The notes under the pieces: model-generated
The model's database searches: none
Told to the model about the DNA's origin: nothing
What the model saw: the letters and a program-made list of their open reading frames with translations, nothing else
Part shown: positions 10,574 to 30,296 of the stretch, one piece after another
How the letters are laid out: each line of letters opens with the position of its first letter
Position numbering within the stretch: position 1 is the first letter of the stretch
Made by a program: the position numbers and the translations under genes
Assembly: GCA_903819895.1 (NCBI GenBank)
Contig: CAIJFH010000001.1
Location: forward strand, 1-43,654
DNA length: 43,654 nucleotides
Direction: 5' to 3'
Source of the DNA: Candidatus Adlerbacteria bacterium
GTDB taxonomy: Bacteria; Patescibacteriota; Minisyncoccia; Phycocordibacterales; SBAW01

Positions 10574-10721
10574 AAGCATTCATTACGCACACCCTTGGTT
10601 GTTGACTGATGATCTGCGCATTCAGTACCTCCGTCGCCATAGTATCCGAGATGTTGATTTTTGCAATACACGCGCGATACGCAGTCGACACGCGCCACAT
10701 GTCTTGGTATTCTTTCCTTAT

Positions 10722-11174
10722 ATGACACACACCGAACTCCGCGAGCAGATCAAGCAGGCGATGCGTGACCGAGCAGAATTAAAATTGTCGGTGCTGCGTG
10801 GGTTGCTCTCGGCAGCCACCAACGAGCTGGTCGCGAAGGGCAAAAAGCCAACTGACGAAATCAGTGAGGACGATTTGGCCGGGCTCATCCGCCGCGCCGC
10901 AAAGCAGCGCAAGGACTCGATCGAGCAGTTCGAAAAAGGCGGCCGCCCCGACTTGGCAACCAAGGAGCAGGAAGAGCTGGCAATCCTCGAGACCCTCCTC
11001 CCTCCCCTTATGTCTGCCGACGCAGTGACCGCTGTCGTCAAAGCAAAAGCCGCCGAGCTTGGTATTACAGACAAAACAAAAGTAAACCAACTCATTGGCG
11101 CGTTGATGAAAGATCTCAAAGGCAAGGCCGATGGTGCCGTTGTCAAAGCAGCCGTTGACGCGCTGTTTGTGTAG
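10722..11174 (+). CDS. GatB/YqeY domain-containing protein
   Basis: MTHTELREQIKQAMRDRAELKLSVLRGLLSAATNELVAKGK...LLPPLMSADAVTAVVKAKAAELGITD...DLKGKADGAVVKAAVDALF. Confidence 0.92.
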   Translation: MTHTELREQIKQAMRDRAELKLSVLRGLLSAATNELVAKGKKPTDEISEDDLAGLIRRAAKQRKDSIEQFEKGGRPDLATKEQEELAILETLLPPLMSADAVTAVVKAKAAELGITDKTKVNQLIGALMKDLKGKADGAVVKAAVDALFV

Positions 11175-11237
11175 CAGGTTGACAAAAATGTGCTTTGTGT
11201 GAAGATATGGTCAGGCAACCGACAATGGAGTTGTTTT

Positions 11238-11447
11238 ATGGGTTACGCTGACAATTCGTCGCCCCAAAAAACCGGACTAAGAAGGACAAGAGGAGCGCGG
11301 GCAGCAACCCCGACTCCGCGGGGCGCCGCTACTGTTTTATGCCCTGCTCACTCAATGCTGAATGATCGGCGAGCAGCAGATTCTGCAGCAAGAGCGCGGC
11401 GACAATTTGGCGAGGAGGACAATGAGGAAACGGCGGAGGATGACTAA
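11238..11447 (+). CDS. Small hypothetical protein, basic body and acidic tail (~69 aa)
   Basis: MGYADNSSPQKTGLRRTRGARAATPTPRGAA...RARRQFGEEDNEETAEDD; GGAG upstream of the ATG; immediately followed by a terminator. Confidence 0.45.
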   Translation: MGYADNSSPQKTGLRRTRGARAATPTPRGAATVLCPAHSMLNDRRAADSAARARRQFGEEDNEETAEDD

Positions 11448-11467
11448 TCCTCCGCCGCCTATTTTTT
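11432..11467 (+). terminator. Intrinsic terminator overlapping the end of ORF 11238-11447
   Basis: GGCGGAGGAT-GACTA-ATCCTCCGCC then GCCTATTTTTT. Confidence 0.8.
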
Positions 11468-11480
11468 ACCGAATTTAAAT

Positions 11481-12398
11481 CTACGCAACCACCTCCTCGT
11501 TGGTTGAGGCCGCACGCTGGCGGCGTTGTGCGTGGACAACCGCGCACATTCTCCGCACATATTTTGCGTCTAGTCTTGCCGCGGTATCTGCCCAAATTCT
11601 TACCACCGCCAGCAAAGCGCTCTCCGTGGACAGTGCACATGCAAGGGTCTGACGAACGAGCGACAATGCCGTGCTCGTGCTCGAATTGAGCGCCGTTGGA
11701 AACCGTACATCACGACCATCAGGCAGTGCCAGGGTACCGCCATACGTCTTGACCGCGCATATAGCTCGCACCGCACTTTCACTCTCGCTCAGATCTTCGA
11801 TGACCATGTCAGCGATACCAAGGTGGTACAGCATCTGAGCATCCAGTAGCGGCCGTTCGCAGATTGCCCACTCGACAACAGGCAGAGACACTCTCCGCTG
11901 GAGTAGAAAGACGTGCCACCCCATACCGGGGAAGAATCCAAACATCGACTCGGGTACGCGCATCTTCGCGCTTTTCGTTACAAGAACATATTGACAGGCA
12001 AGCGCCGCCTCGGCCGCGCCGCCCATCAAGGTGGCGTCGACAACCGCGACAGTGATGAGCCGGCCAGCAAACCCATTGAACAAGACCAATTGCTGCTGAA
12101 CGCAGTTCTTTCCGTAGGCACAAAGGGTTTCGAAGTCGTTCAGTTCTGCAAGCTGCGCAAACAATTTCAGATCACCGCCGTTAAAATTCTCCGAAAACAC
12201 CCACACGAAGTGGGTGAGAGTATCGCCCCCATCGAGCATCGATGTAACCAGTTCGAGCATCTCTCGCAAGTCAGCAAGCGTGCTCGGAGTGAAGCAATTG
12301 CGCGCGTTGCCCAGCAATTTTATGTAGACGACACCATGATGGACACGCACCTCAACTTCGCCATGGGTCATGTTGACCCGCATCTCGTTTACTACCAT
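11481..12398 (-). CDS. RpfF-like crotonase (DSF-family diffusible signal synthase homologue)
   Basis: 305 aa crotonase fold: VFSENFNGGDLKLFAQL, VAVVDATLMGGAAEAALACQYVL, MRVPESMFGFFPGMGWHVFLLQRR, and an RpfF-like C-terminus VVRIWADTAARLDAKYVRRMCAVVHAQRRQR. Confidence 0.8.
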   Translation of the reverse strand: MVVNEMRVNMTHGEVEVRVHHGVVYIKLLGNARNCFTPSTLADLREMLELVTSMLDGGDTLTHFVWVFSENFNGGDLKLFAQLAELNDFETLCAYGKNCVQQQLVLFNGFAGRLITVAVVDATLMGGAAEAALACQYVLVTKSAKMRVPESMFGFFPGMGWHVFLLQRRVSLPVVEWAICERPLLDAQMLYHLGIADMVIEDLSESESAVRAICAVKTYGGTLALPDGRDVRFPTALNSSTSTALSLVRQTLACALSTESALLAVVRIWADTAARLDAKYVRRMCAVVHAQRRQRAASTNEEVVA

Positions 12399-12424
12399 CG
12401 TTACACCCTTTTGTGTATCGAATA

Positions 12425-12476
12425 TGCCATTTTGGCAATCCGCGCAAAGTAAACACCGTTATAGCCAACGTGTCAA
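12425..12476 (-). promoter_or_regulatory. Predicted sigma70-type promoter and inverted repeat upstream of the rpfF-like gene
   Basis: Minus strand TTGACA - 17 nt - TTTACT; perfect TGCCA-AAA-TGGCA inverted repeat in the predicted 5' leader. Confidence 0.4.
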
Positions 12477-12499
12477 AAGGCCTGAAACATCAACAAAGA

Positions 12500-13975
12500 T
12501 TACTTCGCCAAGTCGAGCACTTCGTCGATACGGATTTTTTCGACAAAGTCGGGCACGTGGCTGACCAGTATCATCGCGCCGTCATATTTGTTGAGCGCCT
12601 CGGCGATGATCGGGATATGGCGGAAGTTGATATGGTTGGTCGGCTCGTCGAGGATCAAAAGGCCTGGTTTCAACAGTACCAACCGCGCAAACGCCACCAA
12701 CCCTTTTTGCCCCTCCGACAAATGGCCAATTTTGGTGTGGATCAACTCCCCCGTGAGCAAAAACCCTGCCGCGACGGTCCGCAAGTTTTCCTCGATCATC
12801 TTTTCCATCACTGCGGCCAACTCCTCGTGCACCGTTTTATCAAAATCGAGGTTGGAGAAATCTTGGCGATAGTAGCCCACGCGCACGCCAGGCGCGATCA
12901 CCGCGTCGGCGGTACCATTGGCGAGCGACTCGAGGAGCGTCGTCTTGCCGATGCCGTTTGGCCCCACCAACTGCAGGTGATTATTTTTCTTGAGCGAAAT
13001 CTCTGCCTTTCGTTTGGTCGGCTTGCCTGTCCCGAGAGGAGTCGAGGGATGATTTTTAATCGTCGTAAACGAGGTGATGCCGACAATCTCGCCAATGAGC
13101 TCCGGCTGCGACTGGATAGTAAACGGCCGAATGGTTTTATCCTCCTTTCGCACATCCACTTTCTCCTCCTCCAACTCCTCGGCCTTTTCGCGCATGCGCT
13201 TGGCGACCATACGCATCTGCCCGCCCTTGTTGGCAAAAAAGTTTGCCTTGTCTTTGTTGTCCTGGATCTGCTTCGCCAAGAGCGCGTTGGCGCGGTTTTC
13301 TTTCTCGATCCGCGCGGTGATCTGCTCGACCACGTCGAGATAGTTGCCGACATACTGCTCGATCTTGTGCGTGTGCACATCGAGATAGAGCACACCTTGG
13401 GTAAACGCGTTGAGAAACGCCGCGTCGTGCGAGATGACAACGCACGTCTTTTTATAGTCGACCAGAAATTTGGTGAGATGCTCGATGCCGGCGTGGTCGA
13501 GGTTGTTGGTCGGCTCGTCAAGCAGCAGGAGGTCGGGGTCTTGGATTAGCGCCGAGGCGAGGAGGAGCCGCGCCTGTTGGCCACCTGAAAATGCGCCGAC
13601 CAGTTTGTCGTGGTCGGGCACCACCAAGTTGACCGCCTCGAGCACGCGGTCGATGCGCGGGTCGATGTCATACACCTTCTTTGAGAACATTTTTTGAAAG
13701 AAGTCGCGCACCGACAGCCCCATGTCCTCGCGCGGGATCACCTGCCGCGCAATAGCGATTGAGGTGCCTCGGTCCAGATGTATCTGCCCGGCGTCGGGTC
13801 GGTAGGTGCCCATCAGCAAGCCAAATAAGCTGGTCTTGCCAGCGCCGTTTTGCCCCATGAGCGCGACCTTGCTGCCGCGACGCAAGTTGCAATCCACTTC
13901 AATGAGGATTGGTTTTTTGGGCCCATGCGCAAATGAGACCTCCTCAAACCGCACAATCGTATCCTGCTTTGCCAT
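12500..13975 (-). CDS. ABC-F family ATPase (duplicated ATP-binding cassette)
   Basis: Two Walker A motifs (GQNGAGKTSL, GPNGIGKTTL), two signature regions (AFSGGQQARLLLA, HLSEGQKGLVAFA), LLLDEPTNNLD / LILDEPTNHI, interdomain linker, no TM segments. Confidence 0.92.
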   Translation of the reverse strand: MAKQDTIVRFEEVSFAHGPKKPILIEVDCNLRRGSKVALMGQNGAGKTSLFGLLMGTYRPDAGQIHLDRGTSIAIARQVIPREDMGLSVRDFFQKMFSKKVYDIDPRIDRVLEAVNLVVPDHDKLVGAFSGGQQARLLLASALIQDPDLLLLDEPTNNLDHAGIEHLTKFLVDYKKTCVVISHDAAFLNAFTQGVLYLDVHTHKIEQYVGNYLDVVEQITARIEKENRANALLAKQIQDNKDKANFFANKGGQMRMVAKRMREKAEELEEEKVDVRKEDKTIRPFTIQSQPELIGEIVGITSFTTIKNHPSTPLGTGKPTKRKAEISLKKNNHLQLVGPNGIGKTTLLESLANGTADAVIAPGVRVGYYRQDFSNLDFDKTVHEELAAVMEKMIEENLRTVAAGFLLTGELIHTKIGHLSEGQKGLVAFARLVLLKPGLLILDEPTNHINFRHIPIIAEALNKYDGAMILVSHVPDFVEKIRIDEVLDLAK

Positions 13976-14077
13976 TCTCACCACCTTACCACAGATTTGC
14001 CAGTTTGACTCGTCAACCGCCCTTTTGTACAGCCAGTTTTCCACCTCTCTATACTATTGACGGAGCGAAAGTAGGCG

Positions 14078-14090: not shown

Positions 14091-14456
14091 ATGGACGCGC
14101 TCTCTCACCTACCACACTACACCACCGACACCACGCGCCCGTGGGGTGGCTTTGAGCAGTTCACCCTCAACGAGCAAACAACGGTAAAAATACTCACCGT
14201 ACACGCAGGTGAGGCGTTTAGTTTACAGACCCATGCACATCGTGATGAATTTTGGCGCGTTCTCGCAGGAAGCGGCAGTATTACCGTTGGGGACACTACA
14301 CGCGAAGCACATGTAGGTGACTCATTTTACATTCCACAAGGCACCACGCATCGCGCACAAGGTGGCATCGACACCATGCAGATACTTGAGATCGCCTTTG
14401 GCGCCTTTGATGAGAGCGACATTACTCGGCTTGATGACCGCTACGGACGAGTATGA
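14091..14456 (+). CDS. Cupin, mannose-6-phosphate isomerase type II-like
   Basis: TRPWGGFEQFTLNEQTTVKILTVHAGEAFSLQTHAHRDEFWRVLAGSGSITVGD...GDSFYIPQGTTHRAQG. Confidence 0.85.
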   Translation: MDALSHLPHYTTDTTRPWGGFEQFTLNEQTTVKILTVHAGEAFSLQTHAHRDEFWRVLAGSGSITVGDTTREAHVGDSFYIPQGTTHRAQGGIDTMQILEIAFGAFDESDITRLDDRYGRV

Positions 14457-15598
14457 CCACACTCTTTTTTAGTATTGCGCTTTTGGCAGTCCTGTCGTTT
14501 TTCCTGCGCAAGCCACGTCCAGGCGAGACGCTTGCCGAGCAGCAGCAGGATCTCCAAAAACTCCTCGAGCGTTTTGCAGAGAACCCAGTGCTGAGCCCCG
14601 ACCCAACCCACTGGTGGGAGTCCAAGGCGGTGCTCAACCCAGCGGCGGTGTATGCGGGCGGCCGAGTGCATCTTTTTTATCGCGCCATGGGCGAGGACGG
14701 CATGTCTCGCCTGGGCTACGCGTGGAGCACCGACGGTATCCACTTTGAGCGACTACCCTACCCCGTGTTTGAGCACGAGAGCGTCGCCAAAGCGCGGTCG
14801 CACTATCCAAACACCTCGCCTGCGCGTCTCACCTACGACACCGTCAACAACGAGTCCGGTGGCGGCTGGGGCGGATGTGAGGACCCGCGCGGTGTGGTCA
14901 TCGACGGCCGCATCTACCTCACCTTCAACATGTTTAACGGTTGGGACTCGATGCGCGTTGCGTATACCAGCATCACCACAGACGACCTGCTGAACCGGCG
15001 ATGGAATTGGGATAAAAGCACCTACCTGTGCCGAGACAACCGCCAAAAAAACTGGGTGCTCTTCCCCGAGAAGATCAACGGCAAGTTTGCGCTCTTCTAC
15101 AACCTCGACAAGGGCGACCCAACGCGTGTCCACATTGCTTACCTCGACACGTTAGACATGACACAAACTCCCGGCGCCGACGAGGCGCTCGACCCGCACA
15201 AGCTCCCCGATCACATTGTGGCGTGGCATCATCGAACCCGCAGCGCCGCCACACCGCCAGTCAAGACAAAATATGGCTGGCTCCTGTTCTACCACGCGAT
15301 GGACAAAGACGACCCCGACCGCTACAAGCTCGGGGTCATGCTGCTTGATCTTGCCGACCCAACCAAAGTGCTGTTGCGTGCAGCGCGGCCAATCCTCGAG
15401 CCAAACGAGTGGTACGAAAACGATTGGAAGCCCGGCATCATCTACGCCACCGGAGCAATTGTGATCGACGACGATTTGCTTATCTACTACGGCGGCGGAG
15501 ACAAATATATCGCGGTCGTACGGACCAACTTGCATGAGTTCCTCGAGGCACTGAAGACCCACCAGCAACCAACCATATCCTTACTCGTCAACAAATAA
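14453..15598 (+). CDS. GH130-family glycoside phosphorylase/hydrolase with N-terminal TM anchor
   Basis: NPVLSP...WWESKAVLNPAAVYAGGRVHLFYRAMGEDGMSRLGYAWSTDG, GGCEDPRGVVIDGRIYLTF, NWVLFPEKINGKFALFYN; N-terminal TM FFSIALLAVLSFFLRKPRPG; ATGA overlap with the cupin gene. Confidence 0.88.
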   Translation: MTTLFFSIALLAVLSFFLRKPRPGETLAEQQQDLQKLLERFAENPVLSPDPTHWWESKAVLNPAAVYAGGRVHLFYRAMGEDGMSRLGYAWSTDGIHFERLPYPVFEHESVAKARSHYPNTSPARLTYDTVNNESGGGWGGCEDPRGVVIDGRIYLTFNMFNGWDSMRVAYTSITTDDLLNRRWNWDKSTYLCRDNRQKNWVLFPEKINGKFALFYNLDKGDPTRVHIAYLDTLDMTQTPGADEALDPHKLPDHIVAWHHRTRSAATPPVKTKYGWLLFYHAMDKDDPDRYKLGVMLLDLADPTKVLLRAARPILEPNEWYENDWKPGIIYATGAIVIDDDLLIYYGGGDKYIAVVRTNLHEFLEALKTHQQPTISLLVNK

Positions 15599-15614
15599 CC
15601 CTCATACACACCGT

Positions 15615-17543
15615 ATGTACATCATCAAACGATCACCCAACAACCCGCTCGTTGCGCCCAGCGCTGGCAAACAATGGGAGGCGCGCGGCACGTTCAACGG
15701 ATGTCCGGTCAAACATGGAGAGAAGATCTATCTTCTCTACCGCGCGCTTGGCGCGCCGGATGCGCTGATGGTGCCCGGCGGGCTCTCGACCATCGGCCGC
15801 GCCTACTCGACCGACGGCGAGCACTTTCGCGATCGACGACAATTTATCACCCCCGAGGAGGAGTGGGACAAGTACGGCTGCGAGGATCCGCGCGTGAGTT
15901 ACTTCGAGGGGCAGTATGTCATTTTTTACACCGCGCTTGGTGGTGTCCCGTTTGGCCCAGGCAATATCAAAGTTGCGGTCGCCCTGTCAAAAGATCTCGA
16001 GCACGTCACCGAGCGCCATCTCGTAACCCCGTTTAATGCAAAAGCGATGGCGCTCTTCCCCGAGCGCATCAACGGCAAAATTACCGTCATCCTCACCATC
16101 GACACCGACCTCCCCCCCAAGCCCGCGCGCATCGCGGTCGCCCAGTGCGACAAACTTGAGGACCTATGGGACTTGGGCTTTTGGCAACACTGGCACGACA
16201 ACCTCGAGCAGCACATCATCAACCCGCTGCGCAGTGACCAAGACCATGTCGAGGTGGGTGCCGCGCCCATCAAGACCAAGGACGGTTGGCTGCTCATCTA
16301 CTCGTACTTTCAAAACTACTACGCAGGCGAGGAGCATCGCGTGGTGGGTATCGAGGCATTGCTGCTCGACCTCGAGGACCCGACCACCATCACCGCCAAG
16401 ACCCACGGCCCCATGCTGGCACCCGAGGAGATCTACGAGCGCTATGGCATTGTGCCCAACGTGGTCTTCCCCTCCGGTGCACTTGTCACTAAAAATCGCG
16501 TCGACCTCTACTACGGCGCGGCCGACACCGTGTGTGCAAAAGCATCCTTCCATTTGCCCGACCTGTTGGCCTCGATGATTCCCGCGCGGCGCAGCGCTTT
16601 GGTGGAGCGTGCAAAAGGCAACCCGATTCTGCGCCCACTACCCGAGCACGCATGGGAAAGCCGTGCAGTGTTTAACCCCGGCGCGATCGACATCGACGGC
16701 ACCATCCACCTGCTCTACCGCGCCATGTCACAGGACAACACCTCGGTACTTGGCTACGCCGCAAGTAAGGATGGTATCCGCATCAGCGAGCGTGACACCG
16801 AGCCGGCATACGTGCCGCGCGAGGAGTTTGAGCAAAAACGAGGAGCATCCGACGGCAACTCTGGCTGCGAGGATCCGCGACTCACGCGCATCGGCAACAC
16901 CATCTACATGGCATACACCGCCTACGACGGCACGCACGCGCCGCGCGCCGCGCTCACCTCAATCTCGGTCAAGGACTTTACTGCCAAGCGATGGAAGGGA
17001 TGGCAAAAGCCAGTACTCGTCACCCCCGACGACCACGACGACAAAGACACCTGCCTCTTCCCTGAAAAAGTTGGCGGACAGTATCTCATTCTGCATCGCA
17101 TCAGCCCGCAGATTTGCGCCGACCTGCTCGACTCGCTCGACTTTACCAAGAGCCGTATCTCCCGCTGCATCGAGCTCCTCGAGCCACGGCCAGGGTTTTG
17201 GGACAGCCAAAAAGTGGGTATCGGTGGGCCTCCCATCAAGACCGACGCTGGTTGGTTGCTCATCTACCACGGCGTTTCAAAAACCAGCACCTATCGGCTT
17301 GGCGCGGCACTGTTTGATTTAGAAAATCCAACGATGCTGATCTCGCGCACCGTCGACCCCATCTTTGAGCCCCGCGAGGAGTACGAGCACGACGGCCAGG
17401 TCAAAAACGTGGTCTTTACCTGTGGCGCGATCGAGCGCGGCGGCACCATCTACCTCTACTACGGCGCAGCCGACACCTGCATCGGCGTTGCTAAAGTGCC
17501 GCTCAGCAAAGTGATGAGCATGTTACTCCCCGAGCGTATCTAA
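15615..17543 (+). CDS. Tandem two-domain GH130-family protein
   Basis: Domain 1: SPNNPLVAP...GCEDPRVSYFEGQYVIFYTA...ALFPERINGK; domain 2: KGNPILRP...ESRAVFNPGAIDIDGTIHLLYRAMSQDNTSVLGYAASKDG...GCEDPRLTRIGNTIYMAYTAYDG...CLFPEKVGGQYLILHR. Confidence 0.88.
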   Translation: MYIIKRSPNNPLVAPSAGKQWEARGTFNGCPVKHGEKIYLLYRALGAPDALMVPGGLSTIGRAYSTDGEHFRDRRQFITPEEEWDKYGCEDPRVSYFEGQYVIFYTALGGVPFGPGNIKVAVALSKDLEHVTERHLVTPFNAKAMALFPERINGKITVILTIDTDLPPKPARIAVAQCDKLEDLWDLGFWQHWHDNLEQHIINPLRSDQDHVEVGAAPIKTKDGWLLIYSYFQNYYAGEEHRVVGIEALLLDLEDPTTITAKTHGPMLAPEEIYERYGIVPNVVFPSGALVTKNRVDLYYGAADTVCAKASFHLPDLLASMIPARRSALVERAKGNPILRPLPEHAWESRAVFNPGAIDIDGTIHLLYRAMSQDNTSVLGYAASKDGIRISERDTEPAYVPREEFEQKRGASDGNSGCEDPRLTRIGNTIYMAYTAYDGTHAPRAALTSISVKDFTAKRWKGWQKPVLVTPDDHDDKDTCLFPEKVGGQYLILHRISPQICADLLDSLDFTKSRISRCIELLEPRPGFWDSQKVGIGGPPIKTDAGWLLIYHGVSKTSTYRLGAALFDLENPTMLISRTVDPIFEPREEYEHDGQVKNVVFTCGAIERGGTIYLYYGAADTCIGVAKVPLSKVMSMLLPERI

Positions 17544-17550
17544 CCCACCT

Positions 17551-18330
17551 ATGACACCCACCTTTCCTGCGCGACCACGTCTGATTGCCTTCGACCTCGA
17601 CGACACGCTTGCCGAAAGCAAGCAGCCGCTCACGCCCGAGATGGCGGCGCTGGTGTCACAGCTCCTTGCCCAGATACCCGTTGCAATTATGTCGGGCGGC
17701 AAATGGGAGCAGTTTACCAAACAAGTCGTTTCTCGACTGCCCGACCACACCAACCTGGGGCGCCTCTACCTATTCCCCTCTGGCGCGGGGCAGTGCTATG
17801 TCTACCGAGACAGCGCGTGGCACCTGCAGTACGACCACTCGTTTACCGAAGAGGAGCGTCAAAAAATCCGTGCTGCATTTGCGATTGCGCTCAAAGAGGT
17901 TGGCCTGGATACTCCACCACCACAACTTTGGGGCGAACAGATCGAGGACCGCGTCGCGCAATTCTCTTTCTCCCCACTCGGGCAGCAAGCGCCGGTGCCC
18001 GAAAAAAAGGCGTGGCGCGAGAAAAATAATCCGCTGCGCCTCAAACTGCGCGAGCTATTGGTGCCACTCTTGCCCGATTTTGAAGTAAAAGCAGGTGGTA
18101 TCACCACCATCGACATCACCCGAAAAGGTATCAGCAAAGCGTTTGGTGTCCGCGAACTGGCCAACATCTCGAACATCCCAATTGCCGACATGCTCTATGT
18201 GGGCGATGCGCTGTGGGAGGGCGGCAACGACGCGGTGGTAATCGAGACCGGCGTGCCCACCTACCAAGTTGCCAACAAAGAAGAGACCGCCGAGTTGATT
18301 ACACATCTACTCGCCACAGCAACACACTAG
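17551..18330 (+). CDS. HAD-IIB phosphatase-fold phosphomannomutase (eukaryotic PMM-like)
   Basis: LIAFDLDDTLAESKQPLTPEMAALVSQLLAQIPVAIMSGGKWEQF...DITRKGISKAFGVREL...ADMLYVGDALWEGGND. Confidence 0.8.
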   Translation: MTPTFPARPRLIAFDLDDTLAESKQPLTPEMAALVSQLLAQIPVAIMSGGKWEQFTKQVVSRLPDHTNLGRLYLFPSGAGQCYVYRDSAWHLQYDHSFTEEERQKIRAAFAIALKEVGLDTPPPQLWGEQIEDRVAQFSFSPLGQQAPVPEKKAWREKNNPLRLKLRELLVPLLPDFEVKAGGITTIDITRKGISKAFGVRELANISNIPIADMLYVGDALWEGGNDAVVIETGVPTYQVANKEETAELITHLLATATH

Positions 18331-19547
18331 CGTTGCAAGAACGCTTCTTTTGCCGAGAGTTTTGATGCGCGGAGCGCAGGCCATGCGCCTGACGCCAGAC
18401 CGATCATAATCGACAATCCAACCGTCAGGCCTGCAAACCACAGCGGCGTGATAAACAATGTGAACCCTTTGCCGCCCATGTGTGTTGCAAATATGTTGAG
18501 ACCAAAGTTGATGCCCTGCGACGCAGCAAAGCCCAGCACAATACCGCTGAGTCCTCCGAGCGACCCCATGATTGCCGACTCCAGCAAGAACAAGTTGCGC
18601 ACATCGGTGTCGGTTGCGCCAAGCGACTTGAGCACACCCACTTCGTAGGTGCGCTCCATAAAGGAGACGATCATCGTGTTAAACATACCAATCGCCGACA
18701 CAATGAGCGCCGTGATACCAAACACACCGAGCACAATCGTGATGATGTTGGTGATTTGTCGTGCTTGATTCACTAGGTCGATGCGTGCCGACACAATGAG
18801 TCCGCGTGTCGTGAGCGCGTTGCGGATACTCTCGACCGTGTCCACACTGTCTGCTTTGACCAGTGTTGTTTGATAAAAAGGTGGAGGTATTTGCACTACT
18901 TGTGGCGGCAAATCAACCAGCGGCGCTTGGGTATCATCCTCGATAATCCCCACAATTGGCAGTGCGCTTTTGGACGACGTGATGGTTGTTGTCCCATGCA
19001 GGTTGTCTTCGTAATCGACGCTAATATTCACTGGTATATTGAGCGCGCTGGTGCTAGTGGGCAACCCCATCACGGCCAGTGTTTGGCTGGTTACCACAAC
19101 ACCTGGTTGCGTCGTGGTGCTGTATACCGACCCCACAGTCGGGGCGCCTCCCGTCAGACGGAAGTACGCTGGGTCAACCAACTGCATCGCGACCAACGCT
19201 GGGTTGTTGGTCCCCTCCTTGGTCACCTCGCCAGAAAATGCGGCAACGGGCACTACCTCGGCAACATGAGGCACCGTACGCAGGTCAGTAATATCTTTTT
19301 CAGAAAACGTGAGGTTGGACTCGCTCGGGTAGGTCGCCTGCATCGTCACCAACGAGTCCTGGGTGGTCACCAGGTTGCCGATGAGGATATACTGCAAACC
19401 GTAGCCGAGCGACACCAAAAACAAGACCACGCCAAAACCCACCGACATACCAAGGATAGTCAGAATCGCACGGACTGGCTTCACGCGGAAGTTACGCAGC
19501 GAAAGCCGAAACATCTCACGCCACAGCAGCTTGTGTCCATCGGCCAT
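18327..19547 (-). CDS. ABC transporter permease, MacB/FtsX type
   Basis: FRLSLRNFRVKPVRAILTILGMSVGFGVVLFLVSLGYGLQ, periplasmic MacB-PCD-like domain, three C-terminal TMs (GIFGITALIVSAIGMFNTMIVSFMERTYEVGVLKSLGATD). Confidence 0.92.
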   Translation of the reverse strand: MADGHKLLWREMFRLSLRNFRVKPVRAILTILGMSVGFGVVLFLVSLGYGLQYILIGNLVTTQDSLVTMQATYPSESNLTFSEKDITDLRTVPHVAEVVPVAAFSGEVTKEGTNNPALVAMQLVDPAYFRLTGGAPTVGSVYSTTTQPGVVVTSQTLAVMGLPTSTSALNIPVNISVDYEDNLHGTTTITSSKSALPIVGIIEDDTQAPLVDLPPQVVQIPPPFYQTTLVKADSVDTVESIRNALTTRGLIVSARIDLVNQARQITNIITIVLGVFGITALIVSAIGMFNTMIVSFMERTYEVGVLKSLGATDTDVRNLFLLESAIMGSLGGLSGIVLGFAASQGINFGLNIFATHMGGKGFTLFITPLWFAGLTVGLSIMIGLASGAWPALRASKLSAKEAFLQR

Positions 19548-19568
19548 GCATCTAGTTTACCAGATGTT

Positions 19569-20900
19569 TTAGCGCTTGGGCTCGTATTCCCCCACACCAT
19601 CCACAATCACCTCCATACGCTCGGCCATCTGTTGCGCACTATTGAGCGGGAACCCAGCGCCAAACTCCTTGACCGGCATATGCAGGACCTCGAGAAACTG
19701 CTTTGCATCCACAAATCGGTGGATACGGTCAGAAATCAGCGCATCAAGCAGCTCCGCTTTAAATGGTGATATGTGGCCAATGTAGTCCTGTGTAATCCAC
19801 GTGCGCAGTTGTCGGATCTCATCTTGGATCGGCAGCTCGGGGTTTTCGTTAATAAGTGCAATCGTGGCATCCAGATCTTTTTGCTTGTTGATGATATCTT
19901 CGATATACGCGGCGATGCGCTCTGCTTTATTCTTCCACATCCCGGCGCCTCCCTCCTCAAAACTGGTGCCGAGCAGTTCTTGAAAGCGCAGCGTATCAAT
20001 CACCGAGGTAAATCGCTGTGCCAAAATATCTTCAAATCGCTGCATCTCGCCAACATTCTGTCCGCGCATAAAAAAGTTTGACAAGATACGCACCATCATC
20101 GCACGCGCCTCTTTGGTACGCGCCTCTTTGGCGAGCTGCTCCTTCAATTTTTCTTCGTCTGTCTGGCCGCCGGTGGTTTCGATTTTGTTTGCACCAGCGT
20201 TCGGGTCAGGTGTGCGATGCTCAACCGAGACAATCACTCCGTCTTTCATATGGAAAATGGTTCGCGCGTCGCGCAAGCTCCATGCCTCGTGGGTCACCAT
20301 GATAATGGTGCGACCATCTTGCTCGTTGAGCTCTCGTAAAATTTTGAGCGCGTTTTGTGCGTTGACCGAGTCGAGGTTACCCAGCGGCTCGTCGGCGATA
20401 ATGATGGGTGGGTTGTTTGCCAGCGACCGCGCAATACCCACACGTTGCTGCTGCCCTCCCGACAACTCCTGTGGGAACCGCTGTGCATACTGGTCGAGGT
20501 TGAGACGTTTGAGCAGTCGCTGCGCCTCCTCAAGCGCCTTTGCACGATTAATACCCACAAATGCCATCGGGAGTGCCACATTGTCGAGCACCGACAGCGA
20601 CGGCACCAGGTTAAATTGTTGGAAGATAATGCCGATACCCGTCTGGCGGTAAATCGCCAACTCTTGGTTGGTAAAAGCCGTGATGTCACGATCTTTAATC
20701 AGCACCTTGCCGCTCGTGACACGGTCAATACCAGAGGTTGCATACAAAAGCGTCGTCTTGCCACAGCCAGACGGCCCAAAGAAAGCGACATAATCGCCTT
20801 GCTCGATTTCGATGTTTATATCACGCAGCGCATGGTACTCGTTCTCCTTACCCTTGTCGTACCACTGCTCGACGTGCTCCAGCTTGATGATTGCGGTCAT
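19569..20900 (-). CDS. ABC transporter ATP-binding protein (LolD/MacB type) with ~200-aa C-terminal extension
   Basis: Walker A GPSGCGKTTLLY, LSGGQQQRVGIARSLA, IIADEPLGNLDS; extension from about residue 230 without recognised domain. Confidence 0.92.
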   Translation of the reverse strand: MTAIIKLEHVEQWYDKGKENEYHALRDINIEIEQGDYVAFFGPSGCGKTTLLYATSGIDRVTSGKVLIKDRDITAFTNQELAIYRQTGIGIIFQQFNLVPSLSVLDNVALPMAFVGINRAKALEEAQRLLKRLNLDQYAQRFPQELSGGQQQRVGIARSLANNPPIIIADEPLGNLDSVNAQNALKILRELNEQDGRTIIMVTHEAWSLRDARTIFHMKDGVIVSVEHRTPDPNAGANKIETTGGQTDEEKLKEQLAKEARTKEARAMMVRILSNFFMRGQNVGEMQRFEDILAQRFTSVIDTLRFQELLGTSFEEGGAGMWKNKAERIAAYIEDIINKQKDLDATIALINENPELPIQDEIRQLRTWITQDYIGHISPFKAELLDALISDRIHRFVDAKQFLEVLHMPVKEFGAGFPLNSAQQMAERMEVIVDGVGEYEPKR

Positions 20901-21343
20901 AACTGCTCGACGAAGTCGACAATTTCTTTTGGCGTAAGTTCTCCCTTGACGAGGTAATGGTCTGCACCCGCCTCTTTCGCCTTTTGTTTGAACTCCGGCT
21001 CGTCGTACTTAGAGTATACAATAATCCGCACGTGTGCATACTCCTGTCGGGAACGCAGGTCTTTGATAAACTCCAAACTCGGCAGTGGTTCGCGCACCAG
21101 CGCGCCGCCAATCCCTGGTGTCAGGAGAAACAGCCCGAGAAATATCACATTTGGCACTTCCTCTTCCTCTGCCAGATACTCGCGCGCCTGTTCAATCGTG
21201 CGCACAGTCGCCACTTCAATCATATGCTGCGGCCCGCTGTGGATCCAAAACGTATCGCGAAAGAGTATCCGCATCATCTCATCGTCGTCGACCATGAGCA
21301 CCCTTTTTGTGTGCACCTGTGTTTGCGTTGCAGTCACTACCAT
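20897..21343 (-). CDS. Response-regulator receiver-like protein, phosphoacceptor Asp apparently lost
   Basis: KRVLMVDDDEMMRILFRDTF...PNVIFLGLFLL...VRIIVYSKYDEPEFKQKAKEAGADHYLVKGELTPKEIVDFV; ATGA-type overlap with the downstream ATPase gene. Confidence 0.85.
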   Translation of the reverse strand: MVVTATQTQVHTKRVLMVDDDEMMRILFRDTFWIHSGPQHMIEVATVRTIEQAREYLAEEEEVPNVIFLGLFLLTPGIGGALVREPLPSLEFIKDLRSRQEYAHVRIIVYSKYDEPEFKQKAKEAGADHYLVKGELTPKEIVDFVEQL

Positions 21344-21354
21344 AGCACTACCAG

Positions 21355-24300
21355 TTAATGGATAAAGTTAAACGTACTTGAGAAGTTCTTGAAGATGATA
21401 TCAACAATGGACTCGCTCTGCTGCGGGGTGACGATCGTGCGAATCGGCAAGGTCTCTACGTTCCCGGCCTGGTCGGTCGAGGACACTTGGATACGATAGA
21501 TGGTTGCGGGCTTGAGGTTCGGGACCAACACCACGTGGTCCTCTACAAAGCCAGTATCATTCTCTATCTTATTCTTGAGCGCTTGTGTCGCAGAACCGCT
21601 CCCCTCCTCATAGTATACCGCAGAAGTCGCCGGTTTGTTGGTCTTCCAGGAGACAATCGACTGCACAATGTCCGTGCGACCTGGTATCAAACTGCTGTCG
21701 ATATGCAAGCTCGCCACCACCGGCGGGGTCTTGTCGACGCCCGTCGTCACCGGCACCGTCCCAATCATCGTGACCAAGTTACCGTCCACATCATAGCCGT
21801 ACACTTTTACATCATACGTGTGGCCAGAGATCAGGTTTGTTGCCGTAACATCGTGTGCCGTCACCAAGGTGCCGTCTTTAAGGGTCTGCGAGGTTCCGGT
21901 TGAGCGGTCGGTAAAGTCGATGCTCGATGAGGTCTTAGATCCTGTGGTCCAGATAATACGGAATGAGTCGGTTTTGACGTCGAGCACTTGTGGCGTAATC
22001 GGGCCCGACTTGGTCGAGAAGGTGTGGTCCGGACTCTTGCTCACCACCTGCGGGAAGATAAATGCATGCGTACTAAAGTGATACTTCGTACCCGACTTCA
22101 AGTTGGTTAGCGTAATACTGTGCGTTGTGGTCGCGGTCTGCAAATCAGATGCCTCCGAGGCGTATGCGGTGGAGCTTGCCGCAGCCACAAAGGATGCGTC
22201 GTCACCATAGTCGAGCACCGTGTATGCTTTAACATTCGTTGCCCACGACACCACTGCCGAGTCCTCGGTCGTACTGCTGACCACCGGGTCAGTCATAAAG
22301 GGCGGGTTGATCGACGGCAGGGCCGACTGGATAATATCCTCGATCTTGCTCTGTATATCCTGCGCTTTGAGCAGCGACATATTACCCAGATCTTCGCTTG
22401 AGAATTTTGTCGTAAATGTTTTCTCATCACTCTGCGTTGTGTTGCCATACGCGTCAATCACTGTGGCGATAAAATGATACGCAGTCCCCGGCAACAAGTT
22501 GCCCAGTTTAATTGAGGTGTTTGTTGATGCCGAGAGCGCTGAGCTACCCGCGGTGTACAGCGGCGTACTGGTCGCATCAGTACTCGACGCGACGGGCCCG
22601 TAATCGATAATCGTACGCACTGGCGCGCTCACCTTGAGGTTAACTGTCGCATCAAAGGTGTTGATAGGATCAATGGTTATATCATTGATTGTTGGTGGTG
22701 TGGTCTTGGCCGCCGTAGCAGCATTGTTGCTGTACGAGCCCGAGGACGGAGATATCACAATCACCTCGCTTGCTGCCGTCTGTACCATCTGTTCGTCAGA
22801 GACACCGCGCACCCCGGCCGCATCGGTCGCTATGATACGGAAGTAGTACTCGGTACCCGGAGCAAGCCCCGATATGGTCGCCACATGTGCTGTCACCAAT
22901 GTAGAGTCGAGCGTAGTCAGGCCAGTGTAGGAGCCATCGGTGGTTGATGCGATAGTGCCGTACTCAATCTGCGTGTCGGCGGGCTTGTTGGTCTGCCAAT
23001 AGACCACAATGTTGTGCGAGTCGACCAACGGCTCGGTAATGTTAAAGATGTTCGGTGGCGTCAAATCATCGCCCGTTGTCAGCGTGTACTCTCGCCCCGC
23101 GTTGTTGTCTGTCGACGTGTTCCCATCAGCGTCTTTTGACGTCACGTAGAAGTAGTACAAGGTCGACGCGGTGAGGCCGCTCAACGAGACCGAGTGTGTC
23201 GTTGTTGCTTCGGCCGATCCTGCCGTCAGGTAGGACGATGTGTCGGTCGCTGTGGTGCCATAAAAAACGTACGAATCGGACAGTGTATCGGTATTCCAGG
23301 TAATAGTCGCGCCATCATACCCCACCGGAGTGGCCGTCACTCCAGCAATCGCTGGCCCGGTCGCGGTGGTAAATGTATACCCTGCACCATTGTTGTCATC
23401 AGTCCCCGTCTCACCATACGAGTCCGCAGAAGATACTTTGAAGTAGTATGGTGTATTTGGCGTAAGCCCGGTCAGATACATCTGGTGCGTATTGGTGTAC
23501 ACATTAGACGAGGTAGTACTTGCATAAGTGGTATCAGTACCATAGTTAACCACCGAGCTCGAAAGCGCGTTAGCGGTCGTCCACGTGATACGTGCATAAG
23601 TGTTTTGGACTTGGTCAGCCACCACGTTGGTAATAATCGGCACTACTGGGCACGCGCCCGTAGTAAAGGTCTGATCAGCTCCGGTACTGGTGCCAATCGC
23701 ATTGCTTGCCGTCGCTGCAAAGTGGTAGAGCGTCGCGCACTCCAAACCAACAAGATCTTGATGGAACGCGCCAGCCCCAAAGGAGCCCGTTACCGATGAG
23801 GTCATGGTGTACTCGGTTGTTGTCCCGTAGGCAAACCCCTCGGACGTAACGGTTGATCCATTAATCGACAACACCGAGCCGTTGAGCACCGTGGTTGTGC
23901 CCGTAATCGCCGATGCACTAAGGGTGTTCACTGTTGGAGGCGCAGACGCAGTCACAAACGAGGTGACCGAGCCGTACCCTGTCCCGCCTGCATTTTCTGC
24001 ATACGCTTTGACATAGTAGGTTGTTGCTGGTGTCAAACCAGAGACATCTTGTGTGAAAGACGCTGTGCCGACCTGCGCACCAAGTGTCGTAGTTGCCGCA
24101 TTGGACACGAGCGCTGCCGTGGTCCCATACACAAAGCCGGACTGTGTCGCATCATCACCCCCTGTGACGGTAATCTGCCCATCAAACGTAGCGGTTGTTG
24201 CAGTAAACGAGGTAACCGACGAGGTGGTCACTGTTGGTGCGTTTGCACAGATAGCGGTCGTAAACGTCCCATCACCCGAGACAGCAGTGCCAGAACTGTT

Positions 24301-27300
24301 CGTCGCAGCACCCTCAAAATGGTAGGTGGTGCCGCAGGTCAAGCCGGTAATATGCTGGCTAAACGGACCAACTGTGTAGCTCCCGGTCGAAGATGCGGTC
24401 GAGCCATATCCCATATCAACGCCATAGTTAAATCCTTCGACAGTGACCGTATAGCCGCCTGTTGCCGTGACCGTACCATTGAGCGTTGCGGTGGTTTGGG
24501 TCACATTCGAAGCATCAAAGATGCTTACAATCGGCATGGATGCGGTGGTACTAAATGGCACAACAGAGCCATAACTCGTCCCGGCAATATTTCTCGCATA
24601 GGCGCGAACGAAGTAATTTGTCCCAGGGAGTAGTGTTGAGACGGTGGCGGTGAATGTTGCGGTACCAACCTGTACACCAAGTGACGTCGTAGCAACACCG
24701 GTATGGAAGGAGAAATCCGTGCTATAGATAAACCCCGCATCCGAAGCATCATCACCTCCCGTATTTGTTATCTGCCCCGAGAACGTCGCCCCGTCGGTAG
24801 TAGGACTCTGCACAGCATCAGTCGTCACTGTCGGGGCTGATGCGCAAGTTGCCGTGGTAAATGTCTGATCAGGCGATACAGCGGTGCCGTCCTGACTCGT
24901 TGCAAATGCCTGAACATGGTAGGTGGTGCCACAGGTCAGGGCACTCGAGATATCCAAAAAGAACGGGCCCACACTGTATGGGCCATTGGCCGCAGAGAGC
25001 GTAGTACCGTAGCTCGTGGTGAGACCATAATGGAACCCCTCGGCGGTTACTTGGTCGCCACCCGTTGCGGTGACTGCACCATTAAGTGTAGCTGACGTCT
25101 GAGTAACCGCGCTTGGTGCCGATACCACCACTGTTGGCGGCGCTGTCAGGGTGGTAAACGAGGTAATGGTACCAAACCCTGTACCCCCCGAGTTGGTCGC
25201 GTAAGATCTAAAGTAGTAGTTCACTCCTGCAGCAAGCCCCGAGACAGAGCCACTAAACGGCACTGCACCCACCTGCCCACCCTGGGTGGTCGTGGCAATG
25301 GGGCTCACGAGCGTTGGGTCGGTGCCGTAGGCAAAGCCGGACTGAGTGACCGTTGCGCCCCCGGTTGCTGTCACTTGGCCGTTGAGCATCACGCTCGATG
25401 TCGCCACCGCGGTAGCTGCGGAGGTTGTCACCGAAGGGGGGAACGCGCAAGACAAGGTCGAAAATGTCTGATCAGGCGAGTAGCTGGTACCAGACCCGTT
25501 CGTTGCAAACACCTGGAAGTGATACGTCGTGCCACACTGGAGGTTGTTGAGATCCAGAGGGAACGAGCCAGCAGCAAAGTTACCCATAAACGATGTCGTG
25601 AGCCCGTAGTTGCTGTCTGGGCCATAGTTAAAGCCCTCCACAGAGACCGTCGAACCACCTGTCGCACTCACCACACCAGTAATCGTCGCGCTGGTGCGCG
25701 TTATGTTGGTAGTAGACGACGCAGCGACCACTGGCGCCGACGCCGAGGTGGTAAACGCACTCATCGTGCCAAAACTGGTACCGCTAGAGTTGGTTGCGTA
25801 GGAGCGCACATAGTAGGTCGTTGCTGGTGTCAGACCAGTCACCAAACTACTAAATGTCGCCGTCCCTGTCTGCGCCCCCAAGGTCGTGGTGGCTATTGGG
25901 TTTTGCATCGAGAAGTCGGTCCCGTACACAAACCCCGATTGTGATGCATCCTCCCCGCCCGTGGCTGTAATCTGCCCATTGAGCGTCGCGCTGTTAGTGG
26001 TTACCAACGTGGCAAGATTAGTGGCCACGGTTGGGTTTTGAATATTGGCGGTGGTGAAGGTGTAGGTCGCACCTTTGTTGTCGTCGGTGAGCGTATTGCT
26101 GTCGACGAAGGTCGAAGACACTTTGTAGTGGTAGAGCGTATTTTGCGTCAAACCGGTGAGATACACCTCGTGTGTCGTCACATAGGATGAGCTGTGCTGG
26201 GTGAGGCCATAGGACGCCGTGGTGCCATAGTCCACCTGGCTCGTCGCTGGGCTGTTTGTGGTCCACACAATGCGTGCAGACGTGTTGAGTATTTGGTCGG
26301 CCTGGGGGCTCTCGAGCGTCTCGGAGCCATTCCCGCCCCCACCACTCCCCCCGCCACCTGTCACAACCACGGGCTGCTTGCTAATCACGCTACTGTAGTT
26401 GGCCATATCCCCATCGGTGTCGACCGTGCGCTCTTTGTAGTAGTAGATGGTGGTAGTCGAGACCGACGTGTCGAGGAAGTAGTTGACACTTGGGTCGGTA
26501 ATAGTTGCGTACGGCGACCCACCCCATGTACTCCCGTTGGTCGAGCGCCATACTTGGTAGCTACTAAAGGTTGCGCCCGCCGCCGAGACATATGGTGTCC
26601 AGGTAAAGAGCAACTTGGGCGTGGTGCTTGAAACATCGTTGACGTCCACACTCCCAGGCGGCAACGGTGCCACAGCAGTCGAGGTGCCCACGTTGCCGTA
26701 GATATCACGCACCACAAAAGTCACCGCGGTCGCGTCTGGCGATACATTGGCGGCAAGCACGGTGGATGTCCCAAGCGAGAACGACGTGCCGTTGGGGGTT
26801 GTGGTCGCAAAGAACCCCCCACTACCCGGGTTGAGCCCGTCGTAGGAACCATCTGCGTTGTCGGTTATCTTGTAGTCCTGGATAGCAGCCGATGCGCTCG
26901 CCTGTACCGAGACCGTGCTTGAGGATGATCCATCAATATGCAGCGTGGTGATATTTGGTGGCGTCGTGTCAAGGGTAAAGACACTCGAAGTGGCTACTGC
27001 AGTATGATAGATCGCTTCGCCATCGTCTGCGGTCACACGAACCTGAGCGGTGGTGGAATAATTATTGGGAATCTGTGCGGCTGCATTCCAATATGCAGTG
27101 TAGGTAGTGGTAGCATTGCCTACATAGGACTGCGAAAGAGTAGCGGATGCACCTGACCCGTCCACAATGCCACTAACGTTGTGCCACGACGCCTGCGTCG
27201 AGCAACTGCTAAGACAGTATTGGAAGGATGGCGTGAAGGTCGTGTCATCAGTGTCGAAGAGTCGATACTGGATCTTCACCTTCCCCCAATCTGGGTCGCT

Positions 27301-30192: not shown

Positions 30193-30296
30193 GTACACCA
30201 AATGCAAACTCTCGCGAGTTGCTTTAACTATAGCGCCAATACGCGCTGCTGCGTGGCACAAACAATGCGCGAGTGGGGATAACTACGCTAGCAAAA

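Follow-up and report, generated by a model that had tools for sequence, protein, structure and literature searches.

A crotonase grouping with the RpfF/PRK08788 clade in the reduced genome of a Candidatus Adlerbacteria bacterium

The window, that is, the whole stretch of 43,654 nucleotides analyzed here, carries on its reverse strand a gene for a crotonase (P0001) that, judged from its sequence, is a member of the RpfF/PRK08788 clade and the most diverged one within our sample. On balance, we slightly favor the view that it is a diverged, probably laterally acquired RpfF/PRK08788 crotonase acting as an acyl-thioester enzyme on acyl groups that are scavenged or belong to a partner cell. The gene and its immediate surroundings comprise the following features:

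10719..11174, forward strand: native flanking gene, YqeY-like, which adjoins RmuC in most congeners and shares 91% identity with its counterpart in the congener G015.
11175..12499, no strand assigned: segment without DNA match in G015 and G023, from the comparison with these two relatives.
11431..11457, forward strand: strong, terminator-like hairpin (z about −4.7 to −5.0) where the YqeY and crotonase genes converge, with an 11-bp stem followed by a T-run on the forward strand.
11481..12398, reverse strand: RpfF-clade crotonase of 305 aa with predicted catalytic Glu130 and Glu150 and pocket Trp269, from the ORF, the PDB and NCBIfam matches, the trees and the alignment.
12500..14044, reverse strand: native flanking gene for an ABC-F ATPase, which shares about 90% identity with its counterpart in G015.

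The crotonase ORF is intact, with an ATG start and no internal stop. A sequence-only reading of this DNA had described it as a crotonase with the RpfF pattern, and indeed every motif quoted there was found and the best PDB matches are DSF-synthase structures. By phmmer, the top four PDB entries are of the DSF-synthase type (7zq7, 2.3e-23; 3m6m RpfF, 3.1e-23; 5fus, 1.7e-18; 6dgn RpfF, 1.1e-17) and are directly followed by the best ordinary crotonase at 3.1e-07, a gap of 10 or more orders of magnitude separating RpfF structures from other crotonases. Among NCBIfam models, PRK08788/NF006452 is the best (140.8 bits), followed by RpfF NF053515 (96.1 bits), and all remaining crotonase models score 36 bits or less. 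Both leading scores lie below the model cut-offs, which are 177 bits for NF006452, passed by seven reference members with 220–412 bits, and 550 bits for the equivalog NF053515. Because the Burkholderia RpfF itself scores only 188 bits on the latter, NF053515 is restricted to near relatives of the Xanthomonas enzyme, and the failure of our protein to reach its cut-off therefore says little. Identity to clade relatives is 24–29%, and no full-length relative above about 30% identity was found.

We addressed the question of kinship by ML phylogenetic analyses and paired HMM scores. In both trees, of 22 and 36 rows, the protein falls inside the RpfF/PRK08788 clade (support 100/99 and 100/100, respectively) and apart from generic enoyl-CoA hydratases (ECHs), those of phylum-mates included; its branch is long, at about 2 changes per site, and its place within the clade is unsettled in both. 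An RpfF-clade HMM built without the protein gave it 142.5 bits versus 70.6 for a generic ECH HMM, clade members left out in turn scored 225–355 bits on the RpfF-clade HMM, and each generic ECH tested ranked the two profiles in the reverse order. These analyses, which the sequence-only reading had named as the means of telling RpfF kinship from a generic hydratase, thus place it in the RpfF clade. The references for RpfF were few and mostly plasmid-derived, X. campestris (Xcc) RpfF being included as an aligned PDB fragment; the PRK08788/NF006452 members considered are plasmid-borne and come from Sphingomonas, Methylobacterium, Bosea, Methylibium, and E. coli. The E. coli IncK2/Z plasmid NZ_CP060058.1 (22241-23074) encodes an RpfF-clade crotonase (L081), upstream of which lie genes for ABC/FtsX permease and outer-membrane lipoprotein sorting; among the RpfF-like rows, this sequence is the outermost in both midpoint-rooted trees. 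Matches in Arcobacter genome contigs proved to be FadJ-type multidomain proteins and were discarded.

Conservation of the active site was examined in Xcc RpfF numbering, with E141 as the anchor and E161, G169, M170, W258, and L276 as controls (residue list in PMC9864630). The two glutamates of RpfF type claimed from the sequence are there: E130 and E150 align with Xcc RpfF E141 and E161. Identical residues also occupy the positions of G85 (G74 in our protein), G137 (G126), G138 (G127), G169 (G158), M170 (M159), and W258 (W269), while L136 and L276 are substituted by M125 and V287. Over nine clade members, 23 columns are invariant and 18 of these are kept, both glutamates and the tryptophan included, at an overall identity of only 24–29%, which argues for selection and against decay. 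The five altered columns are, in the numbering of our protein, G122A, G128A, G182R, V196A, and G204S; G128A changes the third glycine of the GGGxE oxyanion motif, giving GGA, and G122A affects the glycine four residues ahead of that motif. The GGD of the oxyanion hole is conserved, the residue directly before it is absent, and the loop ahead of it is about three residues shorter altogether. The segment FNGGDL quoted in the earlier reading is accordingly present but one residue short of the family form FN[LMFV]GGDL. An insertion of about 20 residues precedes the C-terminal helices, and one additional residue follows the PGMG segment. Located near the oxyanion hole, these changes could modify or reduce activity. 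AlphaFold models of the protein, alone or with two Arcobacter rows, had a mean pLDDT of about 42, too poor for use.

On both sides the crotonase is flanked by genes native to the genus, and the hypothesis of a contaminant contig was rejected for that reason. The left flank (S41 protease, CysRS, DnaB, RecR, L21, RmuC, and YqeY) is collinear with G015 at 75–97% protein identity. DNA similarity to G015 and G023 breaks off at the YqeY stop codon and restarts at the ABC-F stop codon, native genes lie within 310 bp on either side of the crotonase, and both the G+C content (55.6%) and the codon usage of the crotonase gene are inside the range of the contig. The ABC-F gene is co-directional with it, 101 bp upstream, and the hairpin at 11431..11457 also folds on the reverse strand, just past the crotonase stop. 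YqeY is near a contig end in G015, with ABC-F on another contig, and in G023 the two genes are on one contig about 100 kb apart; the site of the crotonase therefore also marks a rearrangement, and neither G015 nor G023 shows a clean empty site. Contig C35 of the same assembly (G000, 55270-55716) carries another YqeY copy, which shares 71% identity with that of the window and may be a paralog or a sign of strain mixture, the contamination estimate of the genome being 3.49%.

Within the genus sample, the gene is restricted to one species, since it is absent from 34 of 34 congeners. With the PRK08788 profile, no other sequence exceeded 86 bits in 380 phylum, 397 order, and 384 class genomes. In the tree, the stronger of the remaining matches group with generic hydratases or FadJ-like proteins, and no RpfF-clade member was found in the sampled phylum-mates. 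Lateral acquisition is probably the simplest reading, and no donor was found. Phage cargo was considered and rejected: IMG/VR scans gave no relative, 16 stretches from a motif scan gave none by tblastn, and the only match in a phage collection, MT836970, is nearly identical to the protein from the Sphingomonas plasmid and resembles bacterial DNA. One phylum-mate with a 1.4-Mb genome has (L075; G137 contig C92) a cluster of enoyl-CoA hydratase, SDR reductase, thiolase-like, and methylmalonyl-CoA mutase-type genes, as read from ORFs; this is unusual for a small-genome lineage, and contamination is possible.

The genome comprises 837,506 bases at 96.4% completeness. Its content was tested by family with PF00550, PF00109, PF00501, and PF00990 besides the crotonase, most control genomes being positive each time. 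At this completeness, neither acyl carrier protein (ACP; PF00550) nor ketosynthase (KS; PF00109) was detected, and the genome likewise gave no AMP-binding acyl-CoA ligase of the RpfB type (PF00501) and no GGDEF domain (PF00990). The genome thus appears to be without fatty-acid synthesis of its own, which fits the reduced CPR/Patescibacteria-type genome suspected from the sequence; so do the genome sizes in its lineage, about 0.4–1.4 Mb among those listed. The search for ACP and for DSF receptors that had been proposed with the DSF hypothesis turned up no ACP and no GGDEF. The cell thus showed no sign of the acyl-ACP precursor or of a receptor of the RpfR type, and canonical DSF synthesis or sensing inside it is unsupported.

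The rest of the window offers no acyl-metabolism or DSF partner gene near the crotonase, and neither RNA families nor tRNAs were found in it. The only two-component gene is that of a lone receiver-domain protein (20897-21343), which stands in a row with a MacB/FtsX-type permease and an ABC ATPase (18327-21343, reverse strand); the receiver and ATPase genes adjoin in G015 too. On the forward strand, 14091-18330 encodes a mannose-6-phosphate-isomerase-type cupin, two GH130 (mannooligosaccharide phosphorylase) proteins, and a HAD/phosphomannomutase-like protein, a cluster that suggests mannan or mannoside use. A giant ORF of 2,968 aa with a TTG start (21355-30261, reverse strand) contains fibronectin type III/purple-acid-phosphatase-N-like repeats and a laminin-G-like domain; it probably encodes a large surface protein or adhesin. 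The crotonase is an orphan enzyme, with no adjoining partner gene and no c-di-GMP cyclase-type receptor found.

How such an enzyme might work can be proposed from its relatives. RpfF and Bcam0581 convert 3-hydroxyacyl-ACP into cis-2-acyl-ACP by dehydration and then hydrolyze the product, and they also cleave many acyl-ACPs (PMC4542539, PMC6361424). By analogy, the oxyanion hole, formed by GGD and the GG of GGAAE, would hold the thioester carbonyl of the substrate, and E130 and E150 would activate water or join in dehydration, thioesterase activity being presumably favored over hydratase activity. The product would be a free fatty acid, possibly cis-2-unsaturated, and a DSF-like product is possible on this basis. 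Since no ACP, ketosynthase, or acyl-CoA ligase was detected in the cell, the enzyme would use not a self-made precursor but acyl-CoA or acyl-ACP that it obtains from a partner cell or encounters there.

A narrower form of this explanation is that of a lipid-scavenging thioesterase or hydratase without any signaling role, which processes acyl groups from other cells. We regard it as a serious contender, at somewhat less than even chances. Fatty-acid synthesis is reportedly missing from CPR bacteria, which recycle lipids instead, and gains of a lysophospholipase and of acpP by transfer have been described (PMC12455944); RpfF, moreover, is a broad acyl-ACP thioesterase (PMC6361424, PMC4542539). 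On the other hand, no other acyl-metabolism gene is found nearby, and there is no AMP-binding ligase detected for making acyl-CoA.

That the protein is a true DSF synthase, producing cis-2-unsaturated fatty acids from the 3-hydroxyacyl-ACP of a partner as a signal to, or interference with, Gram-negative neighbors, seems to us rather unlikely. Its clade and the conservation of both glutamates and of the pocket Met and Trp agree with this possibility, as does the proposal that orphan quorum-sensing synthases of CPR act on other species (PMC7567580). However, ACP, KS, and ligase were not detected in the genome, there is no known route for a cytosolic enzyme to the acyl-ACP of a partner, the scores remain under the equivalog and family cut-offs, and the oxyanion loop is altered. 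Of the initial designation as an RpfF-type DSF synthase, the RpfF clade is retained, but DSF production is not supported, in view of the cut-offs missed, the position as most diverged member, and the ACP, KS, ligase, and GGDEF families that were not detected. Quite improbable in our judgment is a scenario in which a host-dependent CPR bacterium, itself without fatty-acid synthesis, manipulates neighbors through an acquired and reshaped RpfF that turns partner acyl thioesters into a DSF-like signal or drains the partner acyl pool.

It is similarly doubtful that the gene is a decaying or misassembled foreign sequence, functionless in its host. The long branch, the occurrence in one species only, the contamination estimate, and the second YqeY copy on C35 would fit such a history, but the ORF is intact, most of the clade-invariant residues are kept, the codon usage is in the range of the contig, and native genes lie close by on both sides. 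Finally, an ordinary β-oxidation enoyl-CoA hydratase is very improbable: the Pfam ECH_1 match (30 bits) speaks for it, but both trees and the paired HMM scores reject it, no acyl-CoA ligase was detected, and this is the sole ECH_1 match, hence the only crotonase, in the genome.

The preferred reading, an acyl-thioester enzyme of RpfF descent, can be set against known systems. With Xanthomonas campestris RpfF (3m6m), the protein shares the clade, both catalytic glutamates, PGMG, the tryptophan of the IW.DTA helix, and the C-terminal helical region; it differs by its low identity, the residue lost before GGD, GGA in place of GGG, the extra residue after PGMG, the insertion of ~20 residues before the C-terminal helices, and the absence of rpfB/C/G nearby. 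Clade and catalytic residues are also those of Burkholderia RpfF/Bcam0581 (BDSF synthase, 5fus) and of the RpfF of 6dgn, but the Burkholderia enzyme works with RpfR, a c-di-GMP enzyme (PMC6361424), whereas no GGDEF domain is detectable in the present genome. The PRK08788/NF006452 family provides the best model, yet the score is 140.8 bits as compared with 220–412 for the seven members. RpfF-like sequences have also been claimed for other CPR genomes: Bernard et al. (2020; PMC7567580) counted 6 RpfF homologs in CPR by BLAST and 67 by HMM, some beside RpfB homologs, and suggested other species as the targets of orphan synthases, so that the idea of RpfF signaling by CPR is already known. If the enzyme is active, it would be a tree-supported member of the RpfF clade in a lineage without fatty-acid synthesis, and the published proposal of CPR fatty-acid signals to other cells would become directly testable with one recombinant protein. 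The CPR/DPANN homologs, which we compare by description only, had been assigned with a minimum identity of 25% or with an HMM, and the crotonases of phylum-mates tested in our tree fall outside the RpfF clade. What is new here is thus a tree-supported member of that clade, together with a hint that permissive criteria may pick up ordinary hydratases, as may be the case for CPR crotonases named RpfF by identity alone.
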